In this document: positions 16,181 to 55,700 of the stretch, piece by piece
Layout: every line of letters starts with the position of its first letter
Position numbering within the stretch: position 1 is the first letter of the stretch
From: Serripes groenlandicus
Lineage: Eukaryota; Mollusca; Bivalvia; Cardiida; Cardiidae
Length of the DNA: 64,000 nucleotides
NCBI GenBank assembly: GCA_031761405.1
Contig: JASEVX010000011.1
Location: 38,047,700-38,111,699 of the forward strand
Direction of reading: 5' to 3'
The notes under the pieces: model-generated
The model's input: the letters and a program-made list of their open reading frames with translations, nothing else
The model's database searches: none
What the model was told of the DNA's origin: nothing
Position numbers and translations under genes: made by a program

Positions 16181-16272
16181 GAAGTAGACAGTTGAGAGCC
16201 TAAACTGTTTTCCTTTGTGCATTATGTCGGGAGAATTTGCATATTCAGCAATGGAGAATCCCGATCACAAAG
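16181..16272 (+). CDS. MFN: Mitofusin exon with start codon (coding 16224-16272)
   Basis: Preceded by the acceptor-like TTTTTATTGCAG, which implies a non-coding exon upstream. The 43 bases before the ATG are 5' UTR. Encodes [16 protein letters not shown], then one base of the next Gly codon. Donor AAAG|GTATGT. Confidence 0.75.
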
Positions 16273-25200: not shown

Positions 25201-28200
25201 GCACGGTTATCCAATCCAAACATCTTCATTCTACAAAATCGCTGGGACCTCTCTGCCTTTGAAGACGATGTGGACCAAGTCAAACAACAGCATTTGGACC
25301 GGAATTTCCAGTTTCTATGTAACGAGTTAAAAGTGATGGACAAGAAGGAATGTATGGAGAGAGTTTACTTTGTGTCGTCCAGGGAAGTGCTTGCCTCTAG
25401 ACTCAAGGAAGCTGGAACACCCACACCAAGTATGTAAATTTTTAGCTTATCTGTTTATAGCTCGACTGGCTTAAAGTAGCTAGATATACATGAGAGCTCG
25501 GTTCCTTTTGAAAAACAGCCAGATCCTAGGCTGACCCTCTTTGAGATTCAAGTCATGTAAAAAAAAACATGGCCACCAGGAGGCAGGGCTGTTTTTCCTT
25601 ATATGGCTAAAATAAAAAAATAAAATCAGGTGAGCGATCCAGGGCCATCATGGCCCTCTTGTTTATGGTTGTGGATGAATAGCCGGTCTTTTTAAAAGGG
25701 GAAACTTGCGAGTAAATTTGCAAATTGGAGAAATATTTAAAATAAGATTATAGGAGTAGTAGACAACAATTGAGATCTTTGTGGAAAAGGAGAAGTTGCT
25801 CAATTCCTTATTTTCTAAAAGCAGTCTGCTGCTGATGAGTCAATATATATATATTCTTATAGTAGTTAATGTCCTAAACACTGATCAATTACTTTTACAG
25901 CTGGTATACTACAGGAAGGATTTCAAGAGAGGTTATTTTCATTCTCAAATTTTGAAAGACAATTTGAGGTAAGAATGTTTACTTTCTTATACTTTCATAA
26001 CATTCTTTGTTCATTCTTTGCGTGTATTCATATTTTGGGAAAATATAACAAGAAAGCATTCTAATTTACTATTTTTAGCTCACCTGAGCTCAAGGTGAGT
26101 TATTGTGATCGCCTTTTGTCCGTCGTCCATTGTGCGTCGTTCGTCGTCCATCAACATCTTCTCCTCAGTAACCAGTGGGTCAATTGAAATGAAACTTCAC
26201 AGAAAGCATCCTCTCAATGACCTCACCAGAATTCCTCCAAATCTTTGGGATCCGTGCAAAATCCTTGTTTCCATGGCAATGAAACGAAAAAAAAATCAAA
26301 ATTCTTCTTCTCCCAAACTGGTTGGCAGATTTTCAAATAATTTTGTAGAAATGTTCCTTGGATGACACTCTATCAGATTCCTTCAAGCCATGTTGATTGG
26401 TCAAAAAACATGGCTGCCAGGGGGGTGGGGGGGGGGGGGCTATTTTGCCTTATATGGCTATAGTGGAAACATAAAAAATCTTCTCCTCCGAAAGTGTCAG
26501 GCCATTTTCAAATAATTTTGTAGAAATGTTCCTTAAGTGACCCACTATCAGATTCCTTCAAATCAAGTTGATTGGTCGAAAAACATGGATGCCAGGTGGC
26601 AGGGCTGTTTTGCCTTATATGGCTAAAGTGAAAACTTTAAAAATCTTCTCCTCCGAAAGTATGAAGCCCATTTTCAAAAATATTGTAGAAATGTTCCTTG
26701 GGTGACTTTCACCAGAATTCCTTCAAATTGTTGGGATCCATGCAGAATTCTGGTTTCCATGGCAACGAAACGAAAAAAACTTCAAAATGCTTCTTCTCCC
26801 AAACTGGTTGGCAGATGCTGGGGTATTTTGCCTTATATCGCTATAGTGAAAACTTAAAAAATCTTCTCCTCCAAAAGGCGGATTTTCAAAGAATTTTTGT
26901 AGAAAAAGGGGGCCGGGGCTTATATGGCTTAAGTGGGAAAAATCAGGTGAGATATTCCAGGGCCATCATGGCCCTCTTGTTTAAGCTCACCTGAGCATGA
27001 AGTGCTCTAAGTGAGTTATTATACCCCCTTTGAAGAAGAGGGGGTATATAGGAGTCACTGTGTCGGGCTGTCTGTCTGTCGGAAGCAATATTTTGTCTGG
27101 CCTATTTCTTACAAACCACTGGGTGGAATTCAATAACATTTTACATGAAGCTTCTATACCAAGAGGAGATGTGCATATCCTAAAGGAGTTACAATTGCAT
27201 GTTATTTTACAGAGTTATGGCCCTTTTACTTATTAAGTTATGGTGAAGGTCAATGTGCTGTTTAGGGGGTATTTATTATCTTCAGTGATAGTTCTAGTTG
27301 TGATTGCGGTATGTCCAGCATCTGTTGTGCGTCTGTCAACATCATCTCAGTAACCAGTGGGTTAATTCGGTAGAACCTTCACAGAAAACATCCACTCAAT
27401 GACCTCACTAGAATTTTCTTCAAATTTGTTGGATCCATGCAGAATTCTGGTTTCAATGGCAACCTAAACTGGTTGGCTGATTTTCAAATTATTTTGTAGA
27501 AATTTTCCTTGTTGATTGGTTAAAAAAGCAATGCCGACAGGAGACGAGGGTGTTTTGCTTTATATGGTTATAGTGGAAGCTTTAAAAATCTTCTCCTCCA
27601 AATTTTTTTTAACCCTTTTTCACATACAGAACTTTTTTGAAGCCTTTGCAGCAGAGGACTTTTGAAACCATTTTGGCACAAGGAGAAATTACTGATAATG
27701 AGCAATGTCCCTATCCATCGATGTTTACAGCTCTTTTCTATAGTTATACTGCACAATTATTTTTGTCTAGATGCTTTCAACGTCTGCAGAGTTGTTGTTT
27801 GTGGGTAAAGGTTAAATAAGGGATATGAAGGAAAAAAACATGAATGGTGGAATGAATTGAAGTAAATGACTAAGTTGACATTAATAGTTACCTTGCTGAC
27901 TAACAATACTTATTAAGAAACAAAATCTTTCAATGGCATTTTTATTATTGAAACAAAAAATGATGAGTATTTAAGTTTTACTAACGCTAAGTAAGGTTGG
28001 CAGAATTGGACCCTGGTGTGCAAGTTAGTGTTGATATTCATTAATAGAACAAATCAAAAAAATCAGGGTTGAAAATATCCATCTGCAAGAAATCGGCAAG
28101 ATTATGATAAAAACATGATACAAATTTCTAAACCCTCTACCATAAACATCAAATCTTCAATAGACAACTTTGTAAACATCTGCATGAGGAAAAGGGTTAA

Positions 28201-31200
28201 TGGTTCCTCTGTGTGAGGGAAATGCACTGCTGATTTATTAGTCCCCTACCGGCGTGCCGAAGGGGACTATTAGGTTTGCACTCCGTCCGTCAGTCCGTCA
28301 GTCCATCTGTCAGTCAGTCAGTCAGTCAGTCAGTCAGTCAGTCAGTCAGTCCGGCAAATTTTTGTCCGGAGCATATCTCCAAAACTGTACTAGCTATGGC
28401 TATGAAATTCCATATGTGGATACATCTCATCAATGCGGAGTGCAGTGCATATGAACCATAACTCTTGCTTCCCTAATTTTTGAGTTATTTCCCTTTCTTT
28501 ATTTTCATATTTGATTTTTGTCCGGAGCATATCTCCAAAACTGTACTAGCTATGGTTATGAAATTTCACACATGGATGCATCTCATCAAGGGGGAGTGCA
28601 GTGGACATGAACCATAACTCTTGCTTGCCTAATTTTTGAGTTATTTCCCTTTCTTTATTTTCATACTTGATTTTTGTCCGGAGCATATCTCCATAACTAT
28701 ACTAGCTATGGCTATGAAATTTCACACATGAATACATCGTATCAAGGGGGAGTGCAGTGGACATGAACCATAACTCTTGCTTGCCTAATTTTTGAGTTAT
28801 TTCCCTTTCTTTATTTTCATACTTGATTTTTGTCCGGAGCATATCTCCATAACTATACTAGCTATGGCTATGAAATTTCACACATGAATACATCGTATCA
28901 AGGGGGAGTGCAGTGCACATGAACCATAACTCTTGCTTCCCTAATTTTTGAGTTATTTCCCTTTCTTTATTTTCATACTTTATTGTCTTGATATACCTAA
29001 ACATTGGGTTGCTATGACAACAGAAACAGACTCAAAAGTGCAAACCGGTAGGGGACTATGGTATTGCTTGCAATCCTCCAGTTACTTGTTATTTCTTGTT
29101 CTGTAGAAGATGTACTTAACTTTTAAAAACGTGACAAAAGATGAACTTGTGCATGATCAGCAATTTCTTATTTTTGTGATAATGTTTTCAACACGTTTCA
29201 ATAATCAATACTCCTTTATTCATTTATAGAGATTTTTCATAGTTTTGCCAAGATATCTTTAATGTCAGTGATCGAAATTAAGATATGAGACAACGGGTCA
29301 AAAGTTAGTTGAAGCTGAATAAGCCAAATATAGCTTTTAGCAAAAGCAAAATTAAATTAAACCTTATAAGTGGATTGATCTATGTTTCTAATTGTTGTGT
29401 ATGGATAGGTATAAAACCGGGAACATTTTAACAAATAAATAGACACAAAAACAACACATTTTGACATGCTTTGAATTGCAATTCAAATATGAATAATAAT
29501 TCATATAACAGAAAATAAGCAAAAATATCGTATTTTACTGAAAATTTTAACGGGCCGATCATTTTTGAAATTGTATGGCCATTAGCCAGTGGGCCCTACT
29601 AATTTTGACCACTGTAATGTGGTCTGCTCCATATTTCTTTTAAACACCTTCCTTATACAAGATATAGGTTTATTGTAATTTCTCCTTTTTATCAATTTCT
29701 GTTAAACTTTTATTAGTCCCCTACCGGCGTGCCGAAGGGGACTATTAGGTTTGCACTCCGTCCGTCAGTCCGTCAGTCCATCTGTCAGTCAGTCAGTCAG
29801 TCAGTCAGTCAGTCCGGCAAATTTTTGTCCGGAGCATATCTCCAAAACTGTACTAGCTATGGCTATGAAATTCCATATGTGGATACATCTCATCAATGCG
29901 GAGTGCAGTGCATATGAACCATAACTCTTGCTTCCCTAATTTTTGAGTTATTTCCCTTTCTTTATTTTCATACTTGATTTTTGTCCGGAGCATATCTCCA
30001 GAACTGTACTAGCTATGGTTATGAAATTTCACACATGGATGCATCTCATCAAGGGGGAGTGCAGTGGACATGAACCATAACTCTTGCTTGCCTAATTTTT
30101 GAGTTATTTCCCTTTCTTTATTTTCATACTTGATTTTTGTCCGGAGCATATCTCCATAACTATACTAGCTATGGCTATGAAATTTCACACATGAATACAT
30201 CGTATCAAGGGGGAGTGCAGTGGACATGAACCATAACTCTTGCTTGCCTAATTTTTGAGTTATTTCCCTTTCTTTATTTTCATACTTGATTTTTGTCCGG
30301 AGCATATCTCCATAACTATACTAGCTATGGCTATGAAATTTCACACATGAATACATCGTATCAAGGGGGAGTGCAGTGCACATGAACCATAACTCTTGCT
30401 TCCCTAATTTTTGAGTTATTTCCCTTTCTTTATTTTCATACTTGATTTTTGTCCGGAGCATATCTCCAAAACTGTACTAGCTATGGTTATGAAATTTCAC
30501 ACATGGATGCATCTCATCAAGGGGGAGTGCAGTGGACATGAACCATAACTCTTGCTTGCCTAATTTTTGAGTTATTTCCCTTTCTTTATTTTCATACTTG
30601 ATTTTTGTCCGGAGCATATCTCCATAACTATACTAGCTATGGCTATGAAATTTCACACATGAATACATCGTATCAAGGGGGAGTGCAGTGGACATGAACC
30701 ATAACTCTTGCTTGCCTAATTTTTGAGTTATTTCCCTTTCTTTATTTTCATACTTGATTTTTGTCCGGAGCATATCTCCATAACTATACTAGCTATGGCT
30801 ATGAAATTTCACACATGAATACATCGTATCAAGGGGGAGTGCAGTGCACATGAACCATAACTCTTGCTTCCCTAATTTTTGAGTTATTTCCCTTTCTTTA
30901 TTTTCATACTTTATTGTCTTGATATACCTAAACATTGGGTTGCTATGACAACAGAAACAGACTCAAAAGTGCAAACCGGTAGGGGACTATGGTATTGCTT
31001 GCAATCCTCCAGTTACTTGTTTTAAAATAAATTCTTTGCAGGAATGTATTTCTAAGTCAGCTGTAAAAACCAAGTTTGAGCAGCACACAAACAGAGGTAA
31101 AAGCATGACAACGGAGCTGAGAAATATTATGGGAGAAGTCTACACAAGCAGTATTCAACAAAAGTAAGAAATAAACTTGATTATTGTCAATGCTGATGCA

Positions 31201-34200
31201 TGATTTAGCCCATTTTATTGTGATATATATCCCTTTCCCTCATAATATAGATGCTTTCTGACGCCTCTGCAGCAGACGGCTATTTGAAAACATAGTGACA
31301 AAAGAAGAAATTGCACAAAACGTGCAATTTCTCCTTTTGCCACAATGTTTTTCACTTTTAGTCATAGGTTATCCATTCAATTATAGAGATTTTCTATTGT
31401 TTGACAAAATATGTTCAAAGTCGTCTGCTGCAGAATTGTCATATGAGGGAAAGGGTTAACATATTTAGTGGAGGTTTGAAGTAAGTAAATTTGCTTGTAT
31501 TCATTTCGGCCTGGCTTAGGTCAGTCTGAAGATTCCTACATGAGATCACAGTTTTGACCTCTAGTCAGAGTTCTAGATAAGGGGCGTTTTGCATGTTCTA
31601 AAATCCTTATTCGAACCTCTAACCCTATGTTGTTGTACTCAAAATAATCGTCTAAATGAGACGATTATTTTAAGTACCACATCATGGGGTTTGGATGGAC
31701 TTTTACAGAGATATTGTGGGGAAAATAGCTGTATACTGCTTGTTAGTCCCCTACCGGCGTGCCGAAGGGGACTATTAGGTTTGCACTCCGTCCATCTGTC
31801 AGTCAGTCTGTCAGTCAGTCTGTCAGTCAGTCCATCTGTCAGTCAGTCCGACAAATCAGTTTTCCGCACTTTTTTTCTACATGCATTGAGATATTGAGCT
31901 GAAATTTTGTATATGGCTTTGTAATCTCATGTGTCACAGATCAAGTTCGCGTTTCATGGGATTTCGTCAATTTTTTTATGACTTATGCCCCTTTTTGGAC
32001 TTAGAATATTAATAAGTCCGACAAATCAGTTTTCCGCACTTTTTTTCTACATGCATTGAGATATTGAGCTGAAATTTTGTATATGGCTTTGTAATCATGT
32101 GTCACAGATCAAGTTCGCGTTTCATGGGATTTCGTCAATTTTTTTATGACTTATGCCCCTTTTTGGACTTAGAATATTAATAAGTCCGACAAATCAGTTT
32201 TCCGCACTTTTTTTCTACATGCATTGAGATATTGAGCTGAAATTTTGTATATGGCTTTGTAATCATGTGTCACAGATCAAGTTCGCGTTTCATGGGATTT
32301 CGTCAATTTTTTTATGAATTATGCCCCTTTTTGGACTTAGAATATTAATAAGTCAAAACGTGCAAACCGGTAGGGGATTATGGTATTGCTTGCAATCCTA
32401 CAGTTACTTGTTATCTGTAGCTCTGCCTGTAGTAGATGTTTTTAACCCTTTTCCCACCTGCAAATGCATTTAGACACATCTGCAATAGACAACTTTTGAA
32501 AACATTTTGACCAGAGTAGAAATTGTTCACACTGAGCAATTACTCCTTTTGCCACAATCACTTAAAAAATATTTACGAAAAAATATGAAAAATCTGTTTT
32601 ATTAATTATGTATATTATTGAATATAGTTAAAAACATTTTGCCAAAAGGAGTAATTGTATCAACAATGTTTTCACATTTTCAATACTATCTTTTGAGGTT
32701 TCATCCAAATTGGTCCGGGAATATGAGGAAAAACATTTTTGCATTTAAAGCTACCTCTAAGGCTATTTCATTTGTCTTGCACATTGTACTAATGCAATCA
32801 CAAGACTCATGGGAAGTAACCCACTTATGTATTGAATATGTGACAATTGAGAATATAACGGCTAAAGGAATTAGTATAAGCAATCATTATTGGTTGTTTT
32901 CCAATTTATTTTAATTAACTAGTGCTGTACTGTTATTTTTATAAATAATAACTGAATAAAATATGTTTAAACCAACTGTTAAAAATAAAGTCAAGCAGTG
33001 AAGTTTGGTGAGATTGCGGATGCAGATGCTCCAACTTACCTAAGCCTTAACCCTTTCCCTCATATAGACGCTTTCTGACGACTGCAGCAGACAGCCTTTT
33101 GAAAACATAGTGACAAAAGAAGAAATTGCTCAGAACGAGCAATTTCTCCTTTTGACACAATGTTTTCCACTTTAAGTCATAGGTTATCCATTCAATTATA
33201 GAGATTTTCTATTTTTTGACAAAATATGTTCAAAGTGGTCTGCTGCAGAATTGTCATATGAGGGAAAAGGTTAACTATTCAACAAGACCGCTTCTCCATT
33301 TCAATCTTTGTGTATATTTTTTCTGTTACAGTGACATGATGAAGAAAAATCGTCGAGAGCTGGCAGACGAGCTGGACTATATGGACAAACAGCTTGGTTT
33401 GCTTACAACAGAGATTAAAGAGAAAATTAAAGCAATGGTGGAAGATGTAGAAAGAAAGGTTTGTAAACAGATACACATTTACAACTCTGCAGTAGGGGAC
33501 TATTGAAAATGTTTTGGAAAAAAGGAGATATTGTGGTATAAAGGATACAATACAGCTCATTACATTTTTACTCTACCAAGAGTAAACAGTTTTTAATGTC
33601 ACCTGTTTTTGTAAGGAGTCAGATAGGGATCACCTCTATGTTGCCTGTATGGGAGACACATCTATAGGGATCACCTCTAAGTTGTCTGTTCTGGAAACAC
33701 ATCTATAGGGATCACCTCTAAGTTGCCTGTCTGGGTGACACATCTATAGGGATTCCCTCTGTTGTCTGTCCGGGAGACACATCTATAGGGATCACCTCTA
33801 AGTTGCCTGTCTGGGAGACACATATATAGGGATTCCCTCTGTTGTCTGTCCGGGAGACACATCTATAGGGATCACCTCTCAGTTGTCTGTCTGGGAGACA
33901 CATATATAGGGATTCCCTCTCTGTTGTCTGTCTGGGAGACACATCTATAGGGATCACCTCTCAGTTGCCTGTCTGGGAGACACATATATAGAGATTCTCT
34001 CTCAGTTGCTTGTCCATGAGACACATAGGGATCACCTCAGTTGTCTGTCAGGGAGACACAAGGGATCACCTCAGTTGTCTGTCCAGGAGACACATAGGGA
34101 TCACATCAGTTGTCTGTCCGGGAGACACATAGGGATCACTTCTTGGTTGTGTGTCAGGGAGACACATAGGGATCACCTCAGTTGTCTGTCCGGGAGACAC

Positions 34201-37200
34201 ATAGGGATCACTTCTTGGTTGTGTGTCAGGGAGACACATAAAAATCATCTCTCGGTTGTCTATCAGGGAGACACATAGGGATCACCTCTTGGTTTTACTG
34301 TCAGGGAGACACATAGGGATCACCTCAGTTGTCTGTCAGGGAGACACATAGGGATCACTTCTCAGTTGTCTGTCCGGGAGACACAGGGATCACCTCTCGG
34401 TTGTCTGTCAGGGAGACACAGAGATCACCTCTCAGTTGTTAGTCCAGGAGACACATAGGGATCACCTCTTAGTTGTCTGTCAGGGAGACACATAGGGATC
34501 ACCTCTCAGTTGTCTGTCAGGGAGACACATAGATCACCTCTCAGGTGTCTGTCAGAGACAAATAGGGATCACCTCTCAGTTGTCTGTCAGGGAGACACAT
34601 AGGGATCACCTCTTGGTTGTCTGTCCGGGAGACACAGAGATCACCTCTCAGTTGTCTGTCAGGGAGACACATAGGGATCACCTCTTGGTTGTCTGTCAGG
34701 GAGACACATAGATCACCTCTCAGGTGTCTGTAGGGATCACCTCTCAGTTGTCTGTCAGGGAGACACATAGGGATCACCTCTTGGTTGTCTGTCCGGGAGA
34801 CACATAGATCACCTCTCAGTTGTCTGTCAGGGAGACACATAGGGATCACCTCTCGGTTGTCTGTCAGGGAGACACATAGATCACCTCTCGGGTGTCTGTC
34901 AGAGACAAATAGGGATCACCTCTCAGTTGTCTGTCCGGGAGACACAAAGGGATCACCTCTCAGTTGTCTGTCAGGGAGACACATAGGGATCACCTCTCAG
35001 CTGCCTGTCAGGGAGATACATAGGGATCACCTCTCAGTTGTCTGACCGAGAGACTCATAGGGATCACCTCGGCTGTTTGTATAGGAGACACATATGGATC
35101 TCCATAATACATTGTATTGTAGGTATCATTTGACCACATCCACAGTTTAATGTTTGAACAAGATAGATTGAATCCCTTGACATTATATTGGCCTCTGCTT
35201 TGAAACATCAAGCAAAGTAACAGTTTGAAAGTTGTGTAGCGTTGTGTTGATTCTTAGTATAAAATATTGTTGGGAAAGGAGAAATTGCACATTTTCCATC
35301 AATATTTTCAAAGTTAAAATCTGAAAGCGTATCTCAAGTTATCTAAACAGAAAAGGTATTATTATCCCCCGCTTTTTCGAAGAAAAAAAGGGGGGTTATT
35401 AATTTCGGTTTGTCCGTCCGTCCGTCCGTCCGTCTGTCCGTCCGTCACACTTCGTTTCCGTGCAATAACTGCCGCAAATGTGAACCGTTTCTTTTCAAAC
35501 TTGGTAACAAGGTTAAATGCCTTAACGGCTAGGCCAAGTTCGAATATCACTTTCGGCGGACTTTATTTGGTGGAGTTATGGCCCCTTATTTAACAAAATA
35601 TGTTGTTTCTTGCCGTTTCCGTGCAATAACTGCCACAAATGTGAACCTTTTTTTTTCAAACTTGGTAACAACGTTAAATGCCTTAAGGGCTAGGCCAAGT
35701 TCGAATATCACTTTCGGCGGACTTTATTTGGTGGAGTTATGGCCCCTTATTTAACAAAATATGTTGTTTCTTGCCGTTTCCGTGCAATAACTGCCACAAA
35801 TGTGAACCTTTTTTTTTCAAACTTGGTAACAAGGTTAAATGCCTTAAGGGCTAGGCCAAGTTCGATCATCACTTTCGGCGGACTTTATTCGGTTGAGTTA
35901 TGGCCCCTTATTTAACAAAAAATGTCGTTTGTTGCTGTTTCCGTGCAATAACTGCCACAAATGTAAACCTTTTTTTTTCAAACTTGGTAACAAGGTTAAA
36001 TGCCTTTAGGGCTAGGCCAAGTTCGATCATCACTTTCGGCGGGCTTTTTTTGGTGTAGTTATGTCCCCTCATTTAACAAAAAATGTCATTTGTTGCTGTT
36101 TCCGTGCAATAACTGCCACAAATGTGAACTTTTTTTTTTTCAAACTTGGTAACAAGGTTAAATGCCTTAAGGACTAGGCCAAGTTCGATCGTCACTTTCG
36201 GCGGACTATATTCGGTGGAGTTATGGCCCCTTATTTAACAAAAAATGTCGTTTGTTGCTGTTTCCGTGCAATAACTACCATAAATGTGAACTGGTTTTTT
36301 TCAAACTTGGTAACAACCTAGGCCAAGTTCGATCCTCACTTTCGGCGGACTTTATTCGGTGGAGTTATAGCCCCTTAATTAACAAAAAATGTCCTTTGTT
36401 GCTGTTTCCGTACAATTACTCCCACAAGTGTGAACCTTTTTTGTTCAAACTTGGTAACAAAGTTAAATGCCTTAAGGGCTAGGCCAAGTTCGATCATCGC
36501 TTTCGGCGGAGTTATGGCCCCTTGCTTAACAAAAAATGTCGTTTGTTGCTGTTTCCGTGCAATTACTGCCACAAATGTGAACCTTTTTTTTTTTCAAACT
36601 TTCTATCAAGGTTAAATGCCTTAACAGCTAGGCCAAGTTCGATCGTCACTTTCGGCGGATTTTATTCCTACAATATTTCCTGCAAGCGGGGGATATAAAT
36701 TTCATGAATTTGCTTGTTTACTTTCAGGTTGCGACCACTTTAAATGATGAAATTAGAAGACTTGCCATACTTGTTGATGAGTTTGATCGTCCATTTCATG
36801 CAGATTTAACTTCTTTAAACATTTACAAAAAGGCGAGTCAATATTTTTTACAATTTATTGAATAAAGTAATAATGTCTGGTTTTATCCTATGCTAAGATA
36901 TTTGGAAAAGCATACGATAATAACTGGTTAGTACTGTGTACTACATATGGATCAGCCTAATTTTTTTTTTATGGCTTCATACTTTCCAACTTGCAGGAAT
37001 CCGCTATGGCCTAGTGGTTAGTGTTGGGGATTCAGTTCCGGGCTTCCCGGGTTCGATCCCCAGTCATGCTGGAGTGCCCTTTGGTAAGGCACATTTCCTA
37101 GCCTAGTTATAGTTTGTTTACCCAGGGATCTCGAATAAGTGAAATATCGCCGTGATAAAACTGAAATAATGTTTAAACCCAACAAAACAAAAACAAACCC

Positions 37201-40700: not shown

Positions 40701-43700
40701 TAAATTCCATTAAGAACTTTGGTTGCTGCGGCATCAGAAAGGGGGCAAAATGTCCAAACTTTAAAAATCTTCTTCTCTGAATCTGCATGTCAGATTCCAA
40801 TATAGTTTGGTAGAAATGTTCCTTGGGTGACCCTCTACAAAGATTGTTCAAGGCATACTGTTTGGTTGAAAAACATGGCAGTCAGGAAGCATCAGAAAAG
40901 GGGCAAAATCATCTCGTTAACTTTTAGCTTTAAACATCATCTCCTCCTAAACCACAGGACCAATTTCATCCAAACTTCACAGGAATGTTCCTTTGGTGGC
41001 CCTCTTTCAAAATTGTTCTAAGATTTAAATTCCATTGAGAACTTTGGTTGCTGCGGCATCAGAAAGGGGGCAAAATGTCCAAACTTTAAAATCTTCTCCT
41101 CTGAATCTGCATGTCAGATTCCAATATAGTTTAGTAGAAATGGTCCTTGGGTGACCCTCTACAAAGATTGTTCAAGGCATACTGTTTGGTTGAAAAACAT
41201 GGCAGTCAGGAGGCATCAGAAAAGGGGCAAAATGACAAATTTTGGAAATTCCATTTTTTTTAAGTCCTTGTCTGATATTAAGAAAATTGAATAGGAATCT
41301 TACTTCAGTGATCCTCTACTTGATTTTTACAAGCCGTATTGATTGATTACAAAATCATAGCAACCTCGCGTCATCACAAAAGGGGTAAATTGAACTTTTA
41401 GCTACAAATGACAACTCCTACCATTCCACTCGACCAATTTCAACGTTACTTCACAGGAATGTTCCTTTGATGGTTCTCTTTCAAAATTGTTCAAATACTT
41501 ATATTCTATGTAGAACTTTTGTTGTTGCGGCATCAGAAATTGAGAAAAATACCCAAACTTTAAAAACCTCCATCTCCATAATCCATTTGTCAGATTCCAA
41601 GATAATTTGGCAGAAATGTTCTTTGAGTGACTCTCTACAAAAACTGTTCAAGCCATATTGATTTCGTTGACGAACAGGGCAGCAAAGCCGCATTAGGAAA
41701 GGTGCAAAATGACAAAACTTAAAATAATTCCATTCTTATTAAAGTCTTGTTAGATTTCAAGATACAAATGGCTTTTACTGATAAACTATTTCTTTTACTG
41801 AGTGTCCACTCCTTGCAGTTTTATTTGAACTCCTGATTAAATTTTCACAGATATTTGCAGTTAAATATTTGCTTTTAATTTACTATCATTCAGGTGATCG
41901 ATTTAGGGCCATCTTGGCCCTCTTGTTTTGTTAGGCTTTTCCATTAAAGCAAAAAAATTATATGAATGTATTGAAACTAAATTGTCAGTGGCCATAGATC
42001 TAAATGAAAAAACGTGTACTTGTAAGAAAATAGATATAACTCTATCAAGTTCCATCTCCTGAAGAAAACTGCCTTTAAACATATAATTTTGGCATTTTGT
42101 TAGTTATTAGTAGCTTACATAAAAACATAAAATAATATGTTCCTCATTTTTTAATCTCTTTAAACCTTTCCCTCATATAGACGCTTTTTGACGCCTCTGC
42201 AGCAGACAGCTTTTTGAAAACATAGTGACAAAAGAAGAAATTGCTCAAAACAAGCAATTTCTCCTTTTGTCACAATGTTTCCCACTTTTAGTCATAAGTT
42301 ATCCATTCAATTATGGAGATTTTCTATTTTTTGATAAAATATGTTCAAAGTCGTCTGCTGCAGAATGGTCGTATGAGGGAAAGGGTTAAACCTTTCCCAC
42401 ATACGACACATATGCAGCAGATGAGTTTTAGACAAAATTATGGAAAATCTCCATTATAAGCAATTTCCCCTTTTGCCACAATAATTTCAAAAGGATTTCT
42501 GCAAGTGGGAAAGGGTTAACCTTTCAATAATGTGCTTGTCAATTTCGAAGTGCTTGCCAATCCGACAATCAATATCTGTTTTCTGGAACTGCTCTTGAAA
42601 TATGTATGTAGCTATAAGGTGTCGACTTTGTGAATCATTAATGTATAGTTTGTGATTTTACCAGGAACTTCACGTCTATTTAGAAGGCAGTGTGAGTCGT
42701 AACTTACAAGGTCGATGTACGGGAGTTATCCGTAAAAACCTGGATCAGATGGATGCGTATATGATTGGTAGGAGTCACAGAGCGTGTTGTTTTAAATCAT
42801 GTTTTTATCAGTGTTTTAGATAGGGGGGCATGCTTCTTGTTCTTATATTAAATATAATTATTTGTTTACCTTCGGTCCTTAACCCTTTCCCCCATATAGA
42901 CGCTTTCTGACGCCTCTGCAGCAGACGGCTTTTTGAAAACATAGTGACAAAAGAAGAAATTGCTCAAAACGAGCAATTTCTCCTTTTGACACAATGTTTT
43001 CCACTTTTCGTCATAGGTTATCCATTCAATTATAGAGATGTTCTATGTTTTGATAAAATATGTTCAAAGTCGTCTGCTGCAGAATTGTCGTATGAGGGAA
43101 AGGGTTAATTGTTGAAACGCAATGAGACGATTTGTCTTGCTTATCACAACAAAGGATTTATTAAAAAAAGGGTGATATTACTACTTGGGGCTGTTCCAGG
43201 GAAAAGGGGGAGGAACGACCAACAATATTAACCCTTTCCCTCATACAACAATTCTGCAGCAGACGACTTAAAACATATTTTGTTAAAAAATGGAAAATCT
43301 CTATAACTGAATGAATGAATGAATGTATATTGTTTTATGGCGCATCGACAGCTAAGGTCATTTAGCGCGCAATTAAATTTAATTATTCATGTTCCCTGGG
43401 TAAACAAACCAGTACTAGGCTAGAAAATGTGCCTTGCCCAAGGGCACTCCTCCATGACCGTTGTGCCGCGACTGGGGATCGAACCCGGGACACCCGGTTT
43501 CGAAATCCCCGACGCTAACCACTCGACCACAGCGGATTCCTCTATAACTGAATGGATAACCTATGACTAAAAGTGGAAAACATTGTGACAAATGGAGAAA
43601 TTGCACGTTTTGTGCAATTTCTTCTTTTGTTACTATGTTTTCAAAAAGCCGTCTGCTGCAGAGGCATCAGAAAGCGTCTATATGAGGGAAAGGGTTAAGG

Positions 43701-46700
43701 GTACCACCTTAGGCCTATCAAATTTTAAGTATATTTTGGGCACTAATTTTAGTTTAATTTAAAAAGTATTCACACAACCACCAAATAAAAATAGTCCGCA
43801 GTTACTCCCCCCTAGACAATTTGTCTTGAAACGGCCCTTACTCTAAGACATGCTTCCTGCTCCTTATCTGTACCTCTTTTTAATACTATCCCAAATATTG
43901 CTGTTGTTTTTTTTATCACTGCAAAATGTATGTGCATATATAATATTAGAAAAATACTTCTATTTCATTAATATAACATATTAAGTAGTCTATTATATAA
44001 AAAGAGTTATTTTGGTTGGCATGACAATCACATTGCATTATTCAAGTGAGCGATTTAGGGCCATCATGGCCCTCTTGTTTACGTTTAATATTGTTGATTG
44101 GATCTAACTGGGAAAGGGTCACAAACTCTGATTATAATTATGTCTCCCCCTGTATACAGGGGAGATATATTGTTTTTGTCCTGGGCGTCTGTCTGTCTGT
44201 CTGTCCTTCTGTCTGTCCGAAATCGTGTCCGCTCCATATCTCCAAGACGGCTTGAAGGATTTTCATGAAACTTGGCTCACATGTTCACCTCATCAAGGCG
44301 ACGTGCAGAACCCGCGTCTCGACAATATAGGGTCAATGTCAAGGTCACGCTTGAAGGTCAAAGGTTTGAGGCTTTATTTCGTGTCCGCTCCATATCTCCC
44401 AGACGGCTTGAAGGATTTTCATGAAACTTGGGTCACATGTTCACCTCATCAAGGCGACGTGCAGAACCCGCGTCTCGACAATATAGGGTCAAGGTCAAGG
44501 TCACACTTGAAGGTCAAAGGTTTGAGGCTTTATTTCGTGTCCGCTCCATATCTCCGAGACGGCTTGAAGGATTTTCATGAAACTTGGGTCACATGTTCAC
44601 CTCATCAAGGCGACGTGCAGAACCTGCGTCTCGACAATATAGGGTCAAGGTCACGCTTGAATGTCAAAGGTTTGAGGCTTTATTTCGTGTCCGCTCCATA
44701 TCTCCCAGACGGCTTGAAGGATTTTCATGAAACTTGGGTCACATGTTTACCTCATCAAGGCGACGTGCAGAACCCGCGTCTCGACAATATAGGGTCAATG
44801 TCAAGGTCACGCTTGAAGGTCAAAGGTTTGAGGCTTTATTTCGTGTCCGCTCCATATCTGTCCCAAATTTATAGGTTGGAATGTTTTGAGAGATTTTGAC
44901 AGATATTTGAGGGGAGACATCTGTTTTTTGCAAAAACAATTCTAGTTGATTTTAGAAACTATAGTCTGAACAACAATCTGATTTTTGTATGTGTGACCCA
45001 TTTTGTAAACACCTTTGTCAGAGATTAGCATGTGAATCCCACAAAAATTGTCCACCCATACCATTTTGGACACACTGTTGTTATGTCCCCTTCCTTTGTT
45101 AGGTGACACACAAGGATCACTTATCTGTTGTCTGTCTGTCTGTCTGTCTGTCAAGCGTCTCCATTTTGAAGCGGTTAAGAGTTTCCACATTTAGAGCAGG
45201 AGGCTAGGGTTCAATTCCAGGTCTGGTAATATCAAAGAGTTTTAAAAGTTGTAGTAATATCCCTCCATAGCACTCGGGGTTGCCTGCAGAGCATTACATC
45301 TGATTCAGCAATGACTGGATAAAAGGATACTTGTACTGTAGTACTGATAAATTACCCAGGAAATGGCGTGATATATCTGAAATACTGTTGAACCCAGAGT
45401 AAATAACATTCAGACCAATAGAATGTCTGTCTATCAGGAAGCCTCTTATTTACTGACCTCATGGCAGACCCTACATGTGTTTCTTCAAACTCTTTGTTTT
45501 ATAATATTTTGGCCATGTTTCTTAACAAGCTTAATGTCAGCTGAAATAAGGGTTTTATATCTTAATTAGATTTGCTTTGCCAAATAAGCTTTGACTGCTA
45601 CATGTACATATTTTAAAGATTATTCAACTCAACTTGGGAAAAAGTCTTATGTGTATATTTCAACAACCCCGTATAATTATTCTTTTATGCTTAACCCTTT
45701 TCCCTCATATAGACGCTTTCTAAAGGCTCTGTAGCAGACGGTTTTTTGAAAACATAGTGACAAAAGAAGAAATTGCACAAAACGTGCAATTTCTCCTTTT
45801 GCCACAATGTTTTCCACTTTTTGTCATAGGTTATCCATTCAATTATGGAGATTTTCTATTTTTTGACAATTCAATCAAAGTCGTCTGCTGCAGAATTGTC
45901 GTATGGGGGAAAGGGTTAATAGTTGTAATCCATGTACTGTTGAAAATTGTGTCTGAGGACGTTGCAACATTTTGGCTTTCTCATGTACAAAATTTATTCC
46001 CACAATAACCTCATGATAGGAAGTCTTTCAAGACTTAATGGAATAACTAAATTCACATCCGTTCATGGCTAACTTTTTTATGAAAACCCTTTTCAAACAT
46101 TATCTGTGAATGGACCATGTGTTTTACTATTTCATAGGTTTAGCAACAAGCCGCATGTTGTCGCTTGTGTCTGAAATTGTCAAAGATATTTTACATCCGT
46201 TACCCTTTTCCTGCTCTGTGCAATTTCTCCATTTGTTACAATATTTTCCAAATCAATCTGCCGCGTACGCGTCATAATGCATCTGCATATGGAAAAGGAT
46301 TTAGTATAGATTAATAATGAGAATCACAAAATATGGGACAAGGTTAGACTGCACAAAAACACAGGCTTATCTTAATCTTCATTGGTTGAAAATGTAGTTT
46401 AAGGACATCGAAGAAGGAGTCAAATTATTAACTCGTCTTTTTTTCAAAGAAAAATAGTAGATTTATTGTGATACCCTTGGTGTTGTCGTCATCACAAAAC
46501 TTTAACCGTTCCTCATAACTCCTTATAACTCAAGAATGGTTACACATATTTAAATGAAACTTGGTACACATGCTCCTAGAACCAATATGCATGTCTACAC
46601 CAAGTCAAATAGCTCTGGCTTGAAAAATTATTCTGTTCGGCCCAGTTTTGGACTTAGAAATTCATACAAAAAGTTATACTTTGGCCTTAACTAAACAACC

Positions 46701-49700
46701 AATCGACATTTTCAAATGAAACTTTGTACACATGTTCAGAGGGACATTATGCATGTATAAACAAAGTCACATCACTCTGGCTGTAATAACCATTAAGTTA
46801 TGCCCCTTTTTAGCTCACCTGAGCTTTGCTCAAGGTGAGTTATTGTGATCGCCTTTTGTCCGTCGTGCGTCGTGCGTCAACTTCTTCTCCTCAGTAACCA
46901 GTGGGTCAATTTGAAACTTCACAGAAAGCATCCTCTGAATGACCTCACCAGAATTCCTTCAAATTTTTGGGATCCATGCAAAATTCTGGTTTCCATGGCA
47001 ACGAAACCGAAAAAACTTCAAAATTCTTCTTCTCCCAAACTGGTTGACAGATTTTCAAATAATTTTGTAGAAATGTTCCTTAGATGACCCTCTATCAGAT
47101 TCCTTCAAGCCATGTTGATTGGTCGAAAAACATGGCCGCCAGGGGGGGGCGGGGCTATTTATATGGCTATAGTGAAAACTTAAAAAATCTTCTCCGACGA
47201 AAGTGTCTGGCCGATTTTCAAATAATTTTGTAGAAATGTTCCTTGGGTGACCCTCTATCAGATTCCTTCAAGCCATGTTGATTAGTCGAAAAACATGGCC
47301 ACCAGGGGGGGTGGGGCTATTTTTCCTTATATGGCTATAGTGCAAACTTAAAAAATCTTCTCCTCCAAAAGTGTCAGGCCGATTTTCAAATAATTTTGTA
47401 GAAATGTTCCTTGTGTGATCCTCTATCAGATTCCTTTAAGCCAAGTTGATTGGTCGAAAAACATGGCCGCCAGGGGGGGGGGGGGGGGGGGGGCGGGGCT
47501 ATTTTGCCTTATATGGCTATAGTGAAAACTTAAAAAATCTTCTTCTCCGAAAGTGTCAGGCCGATTTTCAAATAATTTTGTAGAAATGTTCCTTGGATGA
47601 CCCACTTTCAGTTTCCTTCAAGCCATGTTGATTGGTCAAAAAACATGGCCGCCAGTGGGCAGGGCTATTTTGCATTATATGGCTATAGTGAAAACTTAAG
47701 AAATCTTCTCCTCCAAAAGTGTCTGGCCGATTTTCAAATAATTTTGTAGAAATGTTCCTAGGGTGACCCTCTATCAGATTTCTTCAAGCCAAGTTGATTG
47801 GTCGGAAACTGTGGCTGCCAGGGGGCAGGGCTTATATAGCTAAAGTGAGAAAAAAAAATCAGGTGAGCGATTCCAGGGCCATCATGGCCCTCTTGTTTTA
47901 CTTAGAAATTCTTACAAAAAGTTTAACTTTGCCCATAAACTGTTCAAATTTTCAAATGAAACTTGGTACACATGTTCCTATTTACAATACACATGTCTAC
48001 CAAGTCACATAATATCTCTGGCTTAAAAAATTAGTCAGTAATGTCTCTTTTTTTTATTAAGAAAAACAGACAAGTGTTGGCGTTCACTCAACTGCGTTCT
48101 TGTTTGTTTTATTTCCTAATCTGCACACTGCTTTATATTTATCTATATTGTATGCATATTGTGTTTTAGCCATTTCACAGCCTTAAAGCAGCATAACTGA
48201 TATCTTCTCTTTCTCACTTTAGCTTTCCATCTAGGGTCATACCATTTTGCTCATTGATTCACATAGATTTCGTTTTTATTTCAGATTCCGTTTTGATTGA
48301 TTTTTGACTCTTGATTGTGTTATGATTTCTCTGATTAGTTAATTAAGTCCTTTTATCATACATATTCATGGTAGATAACTCTTATCATACTGTACACTAT
48401 TCATCAATAGGAGTTACACACACATGTCGAAGAAGGTCTGGGTAGGAATGTTCAAACTAGATGCTCCGTTGAGGTGCTAAACGCTGTAGAAAGGACGGAA
48501 AAAGAAATGACAGGTAACACTTGTCCTGACTTGACTGATATGATGCATTCTCTGTTTTATATGACATTATTTGGCCTTGACACATGAAATCCAACCTTCA
48601 TTGCTTGTTGACCGGCTAAGACCCTGATCAACATGTACTTCTGTGCAGTCTAATAAGGATCTTCCCTGTAGAAAGCATCCTGGAAGCCCAAAGAAAGAGA
48701 TTATCATCAATGTGATTGAAATTGCAAGAAGCTCAAAATTACAAAAAGTTGTTTTTTTGTGTGACCAGGCTCAATCCCGGTTTACAATCCAATTTAACCC
48801 TTTCCCTCATACGACAATTCTGCAGCAGACGACTTTGAACGTATTTTGTCAAAACATAGAAAATCTCCATAATTGAATGGATAACCTTTGATAAAAAGTG
48901 GAAAACATTGTGGCAAAAGGAGAAATTGCACGTTTTGTGCAATTTCTTCTTTAGTCACTATGTTTTCAAAAAGCCGTCTGCTGCAGAGGCGTCAGAAAGC
49001 GTCTATATGAGGGAAAGGGTTAAAAAACAACATCAGAACCTCTGGAAATATTATACACTTATATACAAAATGAAATGTAAGTAACAGTGTCATTTTGTCA
49101 AATGTTTGTTATGTAGCCAGCCTTGGCAGGATGGCACTTGGGGATAATTTTCTGTCTTCGGTCTGTCTGCCTCTTACCCATTGACTTAGTTTTAGGAACT
49201 TGAAATTGGCAGAAGCCACACTTGTTCTTCATAAAACATGTTCAAAATTATTTCAAAGAGGATTTCTTTACTATCATAAAAGTGAATTTGGATCATTTTA
49301 AGTTGCATTGACTGTAAAATTTCCATACAGTATTACGATGTCATTTCATTAGAAGAATTACTTAATGAAGACACATTGCATCATTTCGTTTAGACCGTGT
49401 GTTTGGATTTCTTCGTAAGTGCATCACAAATAATTTCAGTTCTTATTTGATTTGAATTCAGTTCATCCATTGTGTTGCCTATTGCTGCTTTGCAATTATG
49501 TATTGTTGTTTTCATTATTGTTTAGTTATGTTTCCAGTGTGCACCTTGTGTTTTTTTTTTTTCAATTAAAAGTATTTAAAACTCTTTTTTTTAAGATTTT
49601 TACTATTGGGATGTATGTTATAACAGTTTATATTTGTGTAGAAATTGTTTCATAAGCTTCTTTCTCACAATTTACTCAACACCATTGCTCTTTCTCAATA

Positions 49701-52700
49701 ACCAATTGAAAATCATATAATAAACCCGAATCACTTTTATGAAATTGAAATATTGTAGAAAATGGTGTCGAACAAAAAATATAATATAGAAAATACACTT
49801 TATTTGCCAATATTGTTAAGCACTTTTGTTATTGTAGACATTTTGAGGAAATTATATCAAAACCTCAAGAATTTTGACCAAATAAACATTAACCCTTTCC
49901 CTCTTACGGCAAACCTAATCATGCCAAAACATGGACAATTTCTATAAATTGGAGTTTAATTACTGAAAAAGGTTGAAAACTTTGTGGCAAAAGGTAAAAA
50001 TTGCTCGCCTGCTGTATATGCGTCAAAATGCGTCTACAGGTGGAAAATGTGTTATCCCTTTTCCACATACAGATGTGTTTTGAATCATCTGCAGCAGACG
50101 ACTTTTGAAAAAAGTTTGACAAAGGAGAAATTGTTCCTAATGAGCAATTTCTCCTTTTGTTACAATGTTTTGTTCAAATCTATTCAATGATTATTGTTTC
50201 AAGTATAGACATTTTCCATATTATTGCCTATATATTGACTACTACAGAATTGTTGTATGTGGGAAAGGGTTTTAATGAAGTAATCATTAATTGCAGAGCG
50301 CTTATCATCTCTACTGCCGGAAGAAGATCGTCAACAGATTCAGACCATTATGCCTAAACGAGATTTCGACATTGCCTACAGGCTCGATTGTAGAAATCTG
50401 TGCGCGGATTTCAGGGAGGATATTTCCTTCCGTTTCTCCTTAAGTCCAATGAATCTGGTCAGAAAAATACTCGGTCTTGGGAGGTTACGTAGCGGACAAC
50501 AACCATTTCAAGCTGTGAGTATTTCACACCTACAGTTAACCCTTTCACTCATATAGACGCTTTCTGACACCTCTGCAGCAGACGGCTTTTAGAAAACATA
50601 GTGACAAAAGAAGAGATTGCACAAAACGTGCAACTTCTCCTTTTGCCACAATGTTTTCCACTTTTTGTCATAGGTTATCCATTCAATTATGGAGATTTTC
50701 TATTTATTGACAAAATATGTTTAAAGTTGTCTGCTGCAGAACTGCCGTATGAGGGAAAGGGTTAGGAATAGTCAGGAAATTGACATTCTGAGCGGAACAT
50801 GATTGGAACGAAGTTAGAACGCTTAAAGAGTGGAACGGAATTTTCCGCTTTGAACGAAACTATCATAAGTAATGAAAAATCCAATCACATGAATGCTTCG
50901 CTCATTGAGCGGTTGCAACAATTTACTCAATATATTAAAATACATATTTGTATACTAAACCTTTGTTTAATAAGACACTTAAGTATCCAATTGTAATTTA
51001 ATGTATTAATATTATATATACAATCTTTTTCGTAATTCAATTTGCTTCGCAGCCTTCTTTTTGCTATTCTAAGACATCTCATGATCTGGATTTTCCAATG
51101 TCGCCATTTATAGTTCAGACAAACACAGAGCGCTTTTAGAAGACATTGGTCTTTATTATAAAATGGTTGGTTTTTAACATGCCTTAGATTCTGTTTAAAA
51201 AAAACACTGCAATAAAGAAATTTAAAGAAAAGAATAGAAGTTTTCAAGTGCTTAATGACTACAAAAGATTGTGTGGCAATTCTTCCGACTGGAGATGGCA
51301 AATCTAAAACCATACCACTGTTTCCTTGGCATGTGTTTGGACATGTAGATAGATCTCCTTGTTGGCATTGTAACAAATTAGGATCACATGACTTGAACAT
51401 CTAAATATATATCTTTTCCCCGAAAACAACTAAATATAGATTATTTTTTTCTGCGCAAAAAAAAGATTCTACTGGTGCTCTCAAAACCTTGAAAGCAAGA
51501 ACTTAATTGGCTGGAGAAATGGTTATACGAGGCGACCTTCTGTGGGTCGTCTTCAGATCCTAATATCTGAGTGAATATAAGGATATGATTTTAATCAGAT
51601 TAACTTTATCCCTTCCAGCCATCACAAGTTCCGATGACCCCTCAGGAGCCTCGTGCACCAGGACCTTTCCCAGCAGAGCATAATGAGACGGTTATGATAG
51701 CTTTATCTCTGTTTAAATCTGTAGGACAGAAGTATGCCATGGGAAGTCTTATTGTAGTGGGTGGGGTAAGTTTTTACTACAGTTGTTCGAAACACTTCTT
51801 TTGAGTATGTACTACATAGGGTTTTGAATTCAAATACAGGTATAATTTTTTTATATATACCTCACATTTAGAGCCTCCTTATGCTTTTCGTTTTGTATTG
51901 TGTTAGGTAAACATTCAGGAGTAAAACCTGTAACCTTTCTCCTAGAGGAAGACAGTGGTAGAGCGTCCACCTCTAGTTGAAAAGGTCCCAGGTTCCAATC
52001 CGGTGATGAGCAGGATCTGCCTCTAGGAATTTTCCTCACAAACGGCATGTGTACTGGTTAAATCTCCAGGAAGCAGACATTGAGCATGATAAACTAAAGT
52101 GCTGTAAGCTTGTTTAGTAAAGTTGAAATTGCTCATAACTAGCAATTTATTTATTTGCAGCTTTTGTTTAACTGTTTTCAATATACATGTTATTTATTTA
52201 TATATGTTTGCCCAGATGTTTTCAAAGTCATCTGCTGTGGATTTGTTGTAATTGGTAAAAGGTTAAGAACATATAAAAATAACACAATAAGCACCATATC
52301 TACAGCACTGTCGAGCCTTTCTTTCTGTTATGTGTTACATATATACTTGAATGAATCCTTTTAACTTTTGTTCCTGTTATGTGTCAGGTGTACAAAGCTG
52401 TAGGCTGGAAGATCCTGGCCATAGGCCTGAGTTTGTATGGGGGCGTGTTCTGTTACGAGAGACTGACCTGGACAAACAATGCGAAAGAGAGATCCTTCAA
52501 GCACCAGTATGTGGACTACGCGAGCAGCAAACTCCGACTGATTGTAGATCTGACCAGTGCCAATTGTAGTCACCAAGTACAACAGTAAGTAGTATACCTG
52601 GTGTAATTTAACCCAATATACCCACATAAAGTTAAGAACATCTTGAAATTTACAAATTTACCGTTCACGCTCCGTTCCGTTCCGCTCCGCTCACGTTCCA

Positions 52701-55700
52701 ACCCGCTCTCAAAGCGTTCACTCATTCATAACATTGTGATTGCTTTTTTCCGTTCCGTTCAAATTGAGTGCTATTTTACGCTCACTCGGAACGCTTTTTT
52801 TTTCCGATCAAAATCTGTTCAACGATTTGATTGGCTTAAATTAATTTCGTTTCGTTTATATTTATTTTTACTTAACCCTAGATATCAACAAACGATCTAG
52901 AGTTTTTTCAGCACAATCGTTAGTAGCAAATCGTATTACGAAAATGATCATATTAATAATATTTGTTACATTCTAATTCGATCGGATACTTGAGTGTCTT
53001 ATAAGACAAAAGTTTAGTATACAAATATGACTTTTAATAAAATAGTTTCGTAAAATAATTATCGGATAGTTGTTACAACCGTTCAATGAGCGAATGATTG
53101 GATGTTTGCAATCATTATGATTGTTTCGTTCAGAGCGCAAAATTCCGTTCCGCTCATAAAGCGTTACAATCACGTTCCGCTCATAAAGCGTTACAATCAC
53201 GTTCCGCTCAGATTGTCAATTTCATGATGTTCTTAACTGTACAACAAATCTGTTGCAGATGACTATGAAAACAATTAGTAAAACATAGGGAAACTCTTTA
53301 TAACTCTCCAGTAATTTGCAAACAGCCACATTTGATACAAGTATTTGATATTAAGTATTTGATATTAATATTTGATAATATGTGTGATGTTATCATATTG
53401 ATGTTTGATATTACTTAACTGTTTATTATTACTTAAATACTATTTCATATGTTGATAAGATTTGTAATTATGTTTTCCCTTTGTTTTTGTTAACAGTGTA
53501 TAGTATTGTTTTGTCATGCATGACATTTATGTAATTAGGCCATGAACTACTGTGTTCAAAGCCATGTATGTAAATAAACTCAAAATATATAAATGAAAGA
53601 TTAATTAATTATTATTTATTAAAGTTGAAAACATTGTGGCCTTTTTCTCCTTTTTACACAACGTTTTCAATAGTTGTCTGCTGCAAAGGTGTCAGAAGGC
53701 GTCCACATGTTTAAAAGGTTAACGCTTTCCAACATGCAGACATATTTTGACATCTCTGAAGCAAAAGAACTTTGACTTGAAATTATTGTGTAACATTTGT
53801 TCAACTCAATACAAAACATTTTCATTGATGTAGATAACCCATTGTTTGTCTAAATATTTCAAAGTCGTCTGTTGCAAAATTGTTGTAAGTTGGAAAATGT
53901 TAAATTGGAATATAAGAAATAATTTAGTAATCTTGAAAATGAAATAAGCAAGATGTGATTTTGAAATACCAATGCACCCCTCCTTACATCAATATTTTTT
54001 TCCTCTTTCGCACGTTAGTTGCTGCTATAGATAATTGATTTGTCTATTACCCCACCACATATAATGTGTCGGCAAAGTAATGAAACATTTGAGAATGAGA
54101 GCAGTTTGGGCCTTATGTTACCTCTTTCCCACATTGGTATAGCTTAACCCTTTCCCTCATATAGACGCTTTCTGACGCCTCTGCAGCAGACGCCTTTTTG
54201 AAAACATAGTGACAAAAGAAGAAATTGCACAAAACGTGCAATTTCTCCTTTTGCCACAATGTTTTCCACTTTTTGTCATAGGTTATCCATTCAATTATGG
54301 ATATTTTCTATGTTTTGACAAAATACGTTCAAAGTCGTCTGCTGCAGAATTGTCGTATGGGGGAAAGGGTTAACTGAGGATGCTGTAATTATGAGTATAG
54401 ATTGGTTTGCTGTGTTTTTAACCTCGAAAAAGATGGTATTATAAAAGCAAATCAAATCCTTGAAAACAAAATACAAGATTTCAGCCGCATCAATCAATCA
54501 AGGAGTCTTGGTGCCTATGCAAACAGTGTAAACGCAGACATTGTGCATCCATGTAGTCTTGACGGTCTTCACTTCCTCTCTTTATTGAATCTTGGATGCA
54601 ACTTTTGACTAAAAACTAGAAGTTTAATCCAATGTAACTTTAACCCTTTCCCACATACAACAAATCAGCTGCAAACAACTTTGAAACATCTAAGTAAAAA
54701 TACAGAAAATCTCTTCAATTGAAAGTTTTGAAAACATCGTGGCAAAAAGAGAAATTTCTCATTATGATCAATATCTTTCTTTTTTTTTGATCAAAATGTT
54801 TTTTAATGTCATCTGCTGCAGATGCATAAATGTGTCTACAAGACAGAAATTATAAAATGACGCCAAACCAGAAAATCAATAAAACTGCAAATGTCTGGAC
54901 AGAAATATGTTTATGCATTGATATATGATTACTTTTACAGGGAACTGAGCTCCACATTTGCAAGGTTGTGTAATCAGGCTGACATTTGTAAAGAAAAGCT
55001 TGAAGATGAAATTAAACAAAAGGACATTAGAATAACACAACTGACAACCGTGTCATCCAAAGCAAAAACTTTCAGGTAAAAATGATGTTAACATTTTTTT
55101 TAGGAAAAACTAAATTTCCCACATGCAGACACATTTTGACCCATCTGCAGCAGACAACTTTTGAAAACATTGTGACAAAAGGAGAAATTGCTCATGATGA
55201 GTGATGTCTCCTGTTGCAACAGTTTCCTACTATCTGTGTCTGTATCCAGGAAGATTTGTTAGGTCTGTTTCATGCAGTGAATGTGGTGCTACATTGATCA
55301 AATTTCATCTATGGATGTTTAGTTGCATTCTTGCTGTAAATAATGATTTGAGCAAATGTTATGCTTGAATGACTTCTTTGGTTAATACTTTCCCACATGC
55401 AGACACATTCTGACGCACTACAGGTCCTGCAGATGATTTTTGAAAACATTGTGGGAAAAAGAAATCGCTCAAAATGATCAACTTTTCCTTTTCCGTAATG
55501 CTATCCACTCCATTCAATGGTAAAACTTTCATTTGCAGAGAGCCCCGGTAGCTAAGTCGGTAGCGACGCGGGCTGACAATCCAGGGGTTTTGAGTTTGAA
55601 TCCCGGCTCGGCCAACTTTCTTTCCGACGTTTGACGAATGTCAATGCGACATGCATCATATGTCTTCCACTTATGGGCTAAGTCTATGTGGGAAAGCAGC

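Follow-up and report, generated by a model that had tools for sequence, protein, structure and literature searches.

Does a bivalve make two mitofusins from one gene by choosing between two versions of an internal exon? The question is raised by a 64,000-nucleotide stretch of the Serripes groenlandicus genome (contig JASEVX010000011.1, positions 38,047,700 to 38,111,699), here called the window and numbered from its first nucleotide, which contains one mitofusin gene on the + strand. With exons placed by homology and splice sites, its coding span runs from 16224 to 56068, and each transcript would comprise 17 coding exons with 767 codons that take up 39.8 kilobases (kb) of genome. The gene is a mitofusin of the Fzo/MFN family as judged by both diagnostic domains, since a Pfam search with a 729-residue form that lacks the first 38 residues returned the dynamin GTPase domain (PF00350, E 1e-26) as well as the Fzo_mitofusin C-terminal domain (PF04799, E 1.2e-58), and fusion activity is predicted. 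The protein sequence also matches the MFN2 structure 6jfk (E 2.2e-133). Outside the exon in question it was compared with 39 proteins, and its highest identities (74-75%) are to P0004, Ruditapes, Mya and Mactra, which puts it closest to heterodont clams.

Two versions of exon 12 lie between exon 11 (36728..36832), which ends in phase 0, and exon 13 (50297..50514), which is entered in phase 1. Exon 12a occupies 42665..42767 and exon 12b occupies 48411..48513, with an intron of 5643 nucleotides (nt) between them (42768..48410). Both are 103 nt long and are entered in phase 0 and left in phase 1, with the acceptor ttttaccag and donor TTG|gtagga at 12a and the acceptor catcaatag and donor CAG|gtaaca at 12b. 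These coordinates, lengths and phases, and the homology of the two exons, had been given in the preliminary description and are borne out by a splice-site model and by a BLASTP comparison limited to the two exons (E 4e-07). Its further claim that exactly one exon keeps the frame also agrees with our translations. Specifically, 12a alone or 12b alone gives a protein of 767 residues, whereas inclusion of both reaches a TAG at the 12th codon read in 12b, after 520 residues, and skipping of both reaches a TAA in exon 13, after 523 residues. These early stops lie 765 nt (both) and 550 nt (neither) upstream of the last exon junction. The swapped segment corresponds to codons 476-509 of isoform A, which uses 12a, and of isoform B, which uses 12b, a numbering that matches the earlier one once the first coding exon found (16224..16272, phase 1 out) is counted. 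Thus, 12a and 12b are homologous internal exons that lie next to each other, match in length and phase, and lose the frame when both or neither are included, all of which are features expected of a mutually exclusive pair.

The two exons are identical at 10 of 34 residues and at 51 of 102 nt, and a common codon is used at four of the 10 identical residues, which argues against a recent or assembly duplication. To place them we used class profiles built from the exons of other species, with the window rows omitted, that were searched against 2240 six-frame pieces of the window. The 12a-class profile ranks 12a first (59.1 bits, E 3e-17) and 12b second (44.6 bits), and the 12b-class profile ranks 12b first (62.2 bits, E 3.3e-18) and 12a second (31.9 bits). 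The preference of each profile for its own exon indicates that 12a and 12b belong to separate classes. No third copy of exon 12 was found in the window, where the next-best profile matches have E values of 0.21 and 0.12. The earlier view of 12a as a diverged exon holds in its count of identical residues, but needs amending in that 12a represents a conserved class of its own that evolves faster than 12b.

A search for the second exon in other bivalves, which the preliminary description had proposed, was positive, and the exon proved to be more widespread still, occurring also in gastropods, cephalopods, a tubeworm and nemerteans. Three protein searches, one of which contributed the best 120 of 2195 matches, provided 167 different mitofusins from a clustered database in which a missing isoform of a species carries no meaning. 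Among these proteins, 28 contain a 12a-type exon alone, three contain 12a followed by 12b, and 135 contain 12b alone. The 12a type is thus present in 31 of the 167, of which 22 are assigned to a species: six bivalves (Ruditapes philippinarum, Mizuhopecten yessoensis, Pecten maximus, Saccostrea echinata, Ostrea edulis and Crassostrea virginica), 11 gastropods (Patella vulgata, P. caerulea, Haliotis asinina, Pomacea canaliculata, Littorina saxatilis, Aplysia californica, Lymnaea stagnalis, Physella acuta, Biomphalaria glabrata, Elysia crispata and Plakobranchus ocellatus), two cephalopods (Octopus sinensis and Argonauta hians), one annelid (the tubeworm Lamellibrachia satsuma) and two nemerteans (Tubulanus polymorphus and Lineus longissimus). 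The other nine are closest to gastropods (two), octopods (two) and annelids (five, two of which are just 54% alike). No species-assigned arthropod or chordate mitofusin among the 167 has a 12a-type exon, the nearest thing to an exception being Branchiostoma, which is classed as 12b by 4.9 bits. A 12b-type GLGRN motif is present in two species-assigned fish mitofusins (P0149 and P0155).

For four molluscs both single-exon isoforms were returned, and in each case the two proteins show zero differences outside exon 12. Within exon 12 they differ at 24 positions in Aplysia (P0010/P0016), at 23 in Patella vulgata (P0091/P0092), at 23 in P. caerulea (P0090/P0093) and at 19 in Saccostrea echinata (P0111/P0113). 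These pairs are annotators' gene models, and the databases already contain both forms. In addition, nine of the 31 12a-type proteins, of 734-777 residues, are encoded on contigs of which the longest measure 2487-3863 bases. Relative to the 39.8 kb that the gene occupies in the window, such contigs look like spliced transcripts.

We conclude, with a probability of roughly 0.9, that the bivalve mitofusin gene contains what is predicted to be a functional mutually exclusive exon pair, which most likely goes back at least to the common ancestor of bivalves, gastropods and cephalopods. Animals that carry both exon types probably make two mitofusins by choosing one exon or the other. Several observations weigh on the other side, namely that the evidence for the pair in S. 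groenlandicus itself comes from genome sequence, that 12a is the faster-evolving exon, and that both exons occur together in three of the 31 12a-type proteins, an arrangement that is possibly real. These three proteins, from Lamellibrachia satsuma, Plakobranchus ocellatus and Elysia crispata, have 12a ahead of 12b, as the window does, and are probably prediction errors. The Elysia crispata protein (P0101) reads in frame through the whole of 12a and the greater part of 12b and is 790 residues long rather than 762, which would need either a prediction error or a cryptic acceptor inside 12b. A protein of 1159 residues from the tick Ixodes scapularis (P0085) is the sole one among the 167 with two 12b-type segments and possibly represents two fused mitofusin units.

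It could be argued that 12a is an unused or decaying duplicate and that only 12b is spliced, given that 12a is the more diverged exon and that 12b resembles the exon of the returned arthropod and chordate proteins. However, 12a is open, has intact splice sites and the exact length, fits a class found in 22 species-assigned carriers, and is represented in relatives by isoform models and transcript-like contigs, which leaves a decaying duplicate very improbable. An assembly artefact that set two haplotype copies of one exon in tandem might be suspected in a gene this rich in repeats, but copies of that kind would not share just half of their nucleotides or fall into two separate classes, and we regard this origin as practically negligible. 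A regulated off-switch, where joint inclusion or skipping would generate decay-bound mRNA and less mitofusin, draws support from the distance of both early stops from the last junction. Against it, the gene keeps two distinct conserved protein sequences, for which an off-switch has no need, and a single cassette exon would suffice, so we consider this function unlikely, although less so than a relic or an artefact.

A doubtful but considerably more credible alternative is that molluscs on the one hand, and annelids and nemerteans on the other, gained their 12a exons by independent duplications, as the portion of PMC7434440 consulted reports for mrp-1 of helminths, annelids and molluscs. In a freely searched tree of 89 exon rows and 34 columns, the 22 molluscan 12a rows cluster together (support 84, not starred), while the eight annelid/nemertean-like 12a rows form a separate group (support 99), which favours independent origins. 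So does a tree in which the molluscan rows of both types, 53 in all, are kept together, since it is not rejected (p-value of the approximately unbiased test (p-AU) 0.49) and scores 0.63 log units worse than the free tree. By contrast, a tree constrained to unite all 30 12a rows is 13.8 log units better than the free tree (p-AU 0.76). Given 34 columns and a quick search, neither comparison is decisive. Also opposed to independent origins are the lack of a glycine at position 11 in all 30 12a rows and the equal 12a-12b order in the window, Plakobranchus, Elysia crispata and Lamellibrachia. The exon alignments favour a single origin of 12a in early molluscs at least, make a single origin across phyla likely, and perhaps place the ancestry of 12a in an older lophotrochozoan. 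In regards to rate, between proteins that are 65-75% identical outside the exon, the exon itself is 42% identical for 12a (71 pairs) and 63% identical for 12b (148 pairs), and this faster evolution indicates weaker constraint on 12a than on 12b.

What would the choice of exon change in the protein? In AlphaFold models of both Aplysia isoforms, exon 12 (residues 467-500) falls within a single helix that extends from 458 to 506, with a predicted local distance difference test score of 88-93 over the block. We take the stalk region that holds this helix to be HD2 in the terms of the literature. The swap would thus replace 34 residues in the middle of a stalk helix, with a conserved set of residues staying in place and the remainder rewritten. 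Numbered within the exon, the conserved set includes Glu7 (30/30 12a rows and 44/45 12b rows), Asn13 (30/30 and 44/45), Arg17 (29/30 and 38/45) and Cys18 (27/30 and 44/45). Of the 45 12b rows, 44 have Gly11, as do all 14 outgroup rows, versus none of the 30 12a rows, where the position is occupied by Cys (17), Ser (nine), Lys (three) or Arg (one). The 12b class motif at this site is Gly-Leu-Gly or Thr-Leu-Gly and is retained in isoform B. Aromatic residues average 1.9 per row in 12a versus 0.36 in 12b, and over positions 8-12 the mean helix-propensity cost is 0.439 for 12a versus 0.540 for 12b, with 12a having the better value.

The loss of Gly11 together with the gain in aromatics suggests that a flexible point is removed and the stalk helix re-surfaced in isoform A. 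The 12b helix would have a flexible point that 12a stiffens, the new 12a surface may alter stalk packing or the choice of partners, and the bending that tethering and fusion require would then not be alike in isoforms A and B. The preliminary description had suggested that the swap might play a part that varies with tissue or stress. We infer such stiffening and re-surfacing from models and residue statistics, and there are also results that speak against it. Across the full exon of 34 residues the mean helix cost is no better for 12a than for 12b (0.474 versus 0.447), the Aplysia models have predicted template modelling scores of 0.58 and 0.50 with an uncertain overall arrangement, and the matched stretches of the eight solved sequences found do not reach the exon 12 region. 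For the human MFN2 and MFN1 structures the sequence match covers the GTPase part and the last helix, with exon 12 outside the reported stretches, and structure matches beyond mitofusins added nothing for exon 12. The disease variant R468H presumably falls in the human counterpart of exon 12, as judged from an alignment to the human sequence. This variant restores fusion and is likely benign according to the portion of PMC11929822 consulted, and it is therefore no evidence that exon 12 matters.

In the proposed splicing scheme, exon 11 would be joined to either 12a or 12b and then to exon 13, and transcripts with both exons or neither would meet an early stop and be expected to undergo nonsense-mediated decay. 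Frame arithmetic of this type is a clean-up of wrong transcripts and is no basis for choosing between the exons. Exclusion by a short distance (<50 nt from donor to branch point) and U2/U12 incompatibility are both minority mechanisms of enforcement in the part of PMC5740500 used here, and neither is a defining feature of mutually exclusive exons. With 5643 nt between them, 12a and 12b are too far apart for steric exclusion. Similarly, the donors gcgagt, gtagga and gtaaca of exons 11, 12a and 12b are unlike the U12 donor motif. Weak donors are not a likely cause either, as the U1 pairing values of exons 11, 12a and 12b (-5.8, -7.7 and -8.0) fall among those of the 13 further donors that were scored, which run from -1.6 to -10.0. 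Since the steric and U2/U12 mechanisms do not apply, regulatory proteins should determine which exon is used. The donor of exon 11 that feeds both alternatives (AAG|gcgagt at 36832/36833) begins with GC and is the only such donor among the modelled introns, which are otherwise GT-AG throughout. The exon 12 choice thus depends on a GC-AG intron, and this donor perhaps aids regulatory proteins in choosing. The GC donor and regulatory proteins are the likely levers of choice. Inspection by eye of 400-base flanks indicated no enrichment of RBFOX, STAR, PTB or MBNL-like motifs.

An element of about 229 bases with inverted ends (AACCCTTTCCC...GGGAAAGGGTT) is represented by 61 blastn pieces in the window, including copies at 42161-42389 (+), 42880-43110 (+), 43227-43697 (-) and 48794-49022 (-). 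Copies on opposite strands bracket 12a and 12b, and judging from their orientation they could pair in the pre-mRNA and fold the RNA. As local elements, however, they would not account for a pair that is common to several phyla.

The exon switch is ordinary in kind and, as far as we have seen, apparently new for mitofusin. No description of a mitofusin exon pair was found in the literature searched, which mostly excluded subscription papers and preprints. Specifically, the main text of a paper on doubly uniparental inheritance (PMC12750733) has no occurrences of mitofusin or mfn, no mitofusin exon pair was found in the consulted portion of a paper on mitofusin and OPA1 splicing (PMC11885689), and the consulted portion of an Aplysia ageing paper (PMC8195618) does no more than name an MFN2 transcript. 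Catalogued mutually exclusive pairs such as the human clusters are, in the part of PMC5740500 used here, likewise adjacent internal exons that are homologous, match in length and phase, break the frame upon joint inclusion, are deeply conserved, and encode part of a conserved secondary-structure element. In contrast to the pairs catalogued there, the mitofusin pair lies in the stalk of a fusion GTPase, and is found here in molluscs, nemerteans and annelids only. A closer parallel is exons 6a/6e of coq-2 in helminths, annelids and molluscs, which, in the portion of PMC7434440 consulted, are also mitochondrial, of equal length and mutually exclusive, and combine a widespread form with an extra form that only some invertebrate phyla have, molluscs and annelids among them. 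The coq-2 swap differs in altering an enzyme's substrate for rhodoquinone synthesis and in having its extra exon in nematodes too, and the rhodoquinone phyla listed in that portion do not include nemerteans, which have mitofusin 12a. Splicing of a mitofusin into proteins with different jobs is known from ERMIN2 and ERMIT2, human MFN2 variants in which the GTPase and first coiled-coil domains are missing in whole or in part and which are present on the endoplasmic reticulum (commentary PMC10757993). Unlike these variants, both molluscan products are full length and differ in 34 stalk residues only.

The pair presents one protein, apparently from one gene, with two 34-residue versions that stay distinct across the molluscs sampled. 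This amounts to a natural swap experiment in the mitofusin stalk helix, in a region outside the matched stretches of the solved sequences found, and with two natural versions in hand the role of the helix in tethering and fusion is testable in mitofusin-null cells. Vertebrates have MFN1 and MFN2 as two genes, and also possess two full-length mitofusins, but by two genes versus one gene with an exon switch. The pair also points to exon swapping as a means by which many invertebrates may regulate the fusion of their mitochondria. As a tentative proposal only, molluscs, nemerteans and annelids may have one gene with two fusion modes, where a pre-molluscan 12a class stiffens and re-surfaces the stalk and is switched on by tissue or low oxygen alongside coq-2-like switches. 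If true, lophotrochozoans would have solved by splicing what vertebrates solved by gene duplication.

The remaining coding exons, all on the + strand, are exon 2 (17522..17695), exon 3 (19742..19868), exon 4 with the GTPase P-loop region (20462..20627), exon 5 (21673..21794), exon 6 (24083..24191), exon 7 (25174..25429), exon 8 (25901..25968), exon 9 (31042..31163), exon 10 (33332..33458), exon 14 (51619..51765), exon 15 (52388..52584), exon 16 (54941..55075) and exon 17, which includes the stop codon (55990..56068). Upstream of the gene, open frames at 2270-2944 and 8820-9398 (+) encode coding-like protein of 225 and 193 residues, the latter coiled-coil-like by eye, and from their sequence are possibly exons of a neighbouring gene; Pfam returned no family above its cut-off for either frame. 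Rfam (gathering threshold) and tRNA scans of the whole window gave no matches, nor did a comparison of the window sequence with a phage collection. Finally, introns of the mitofusin gene contain tandem 156-base units in up to 13 copies at 28358-28984, 29821-30915, 37807-39840 and 44223-44859, and the intron after exon 10 contains approximately 40 tandem copies of a unit of about 37 bases (GGAGACACATAGGGATCACC...) at 33615-35070.

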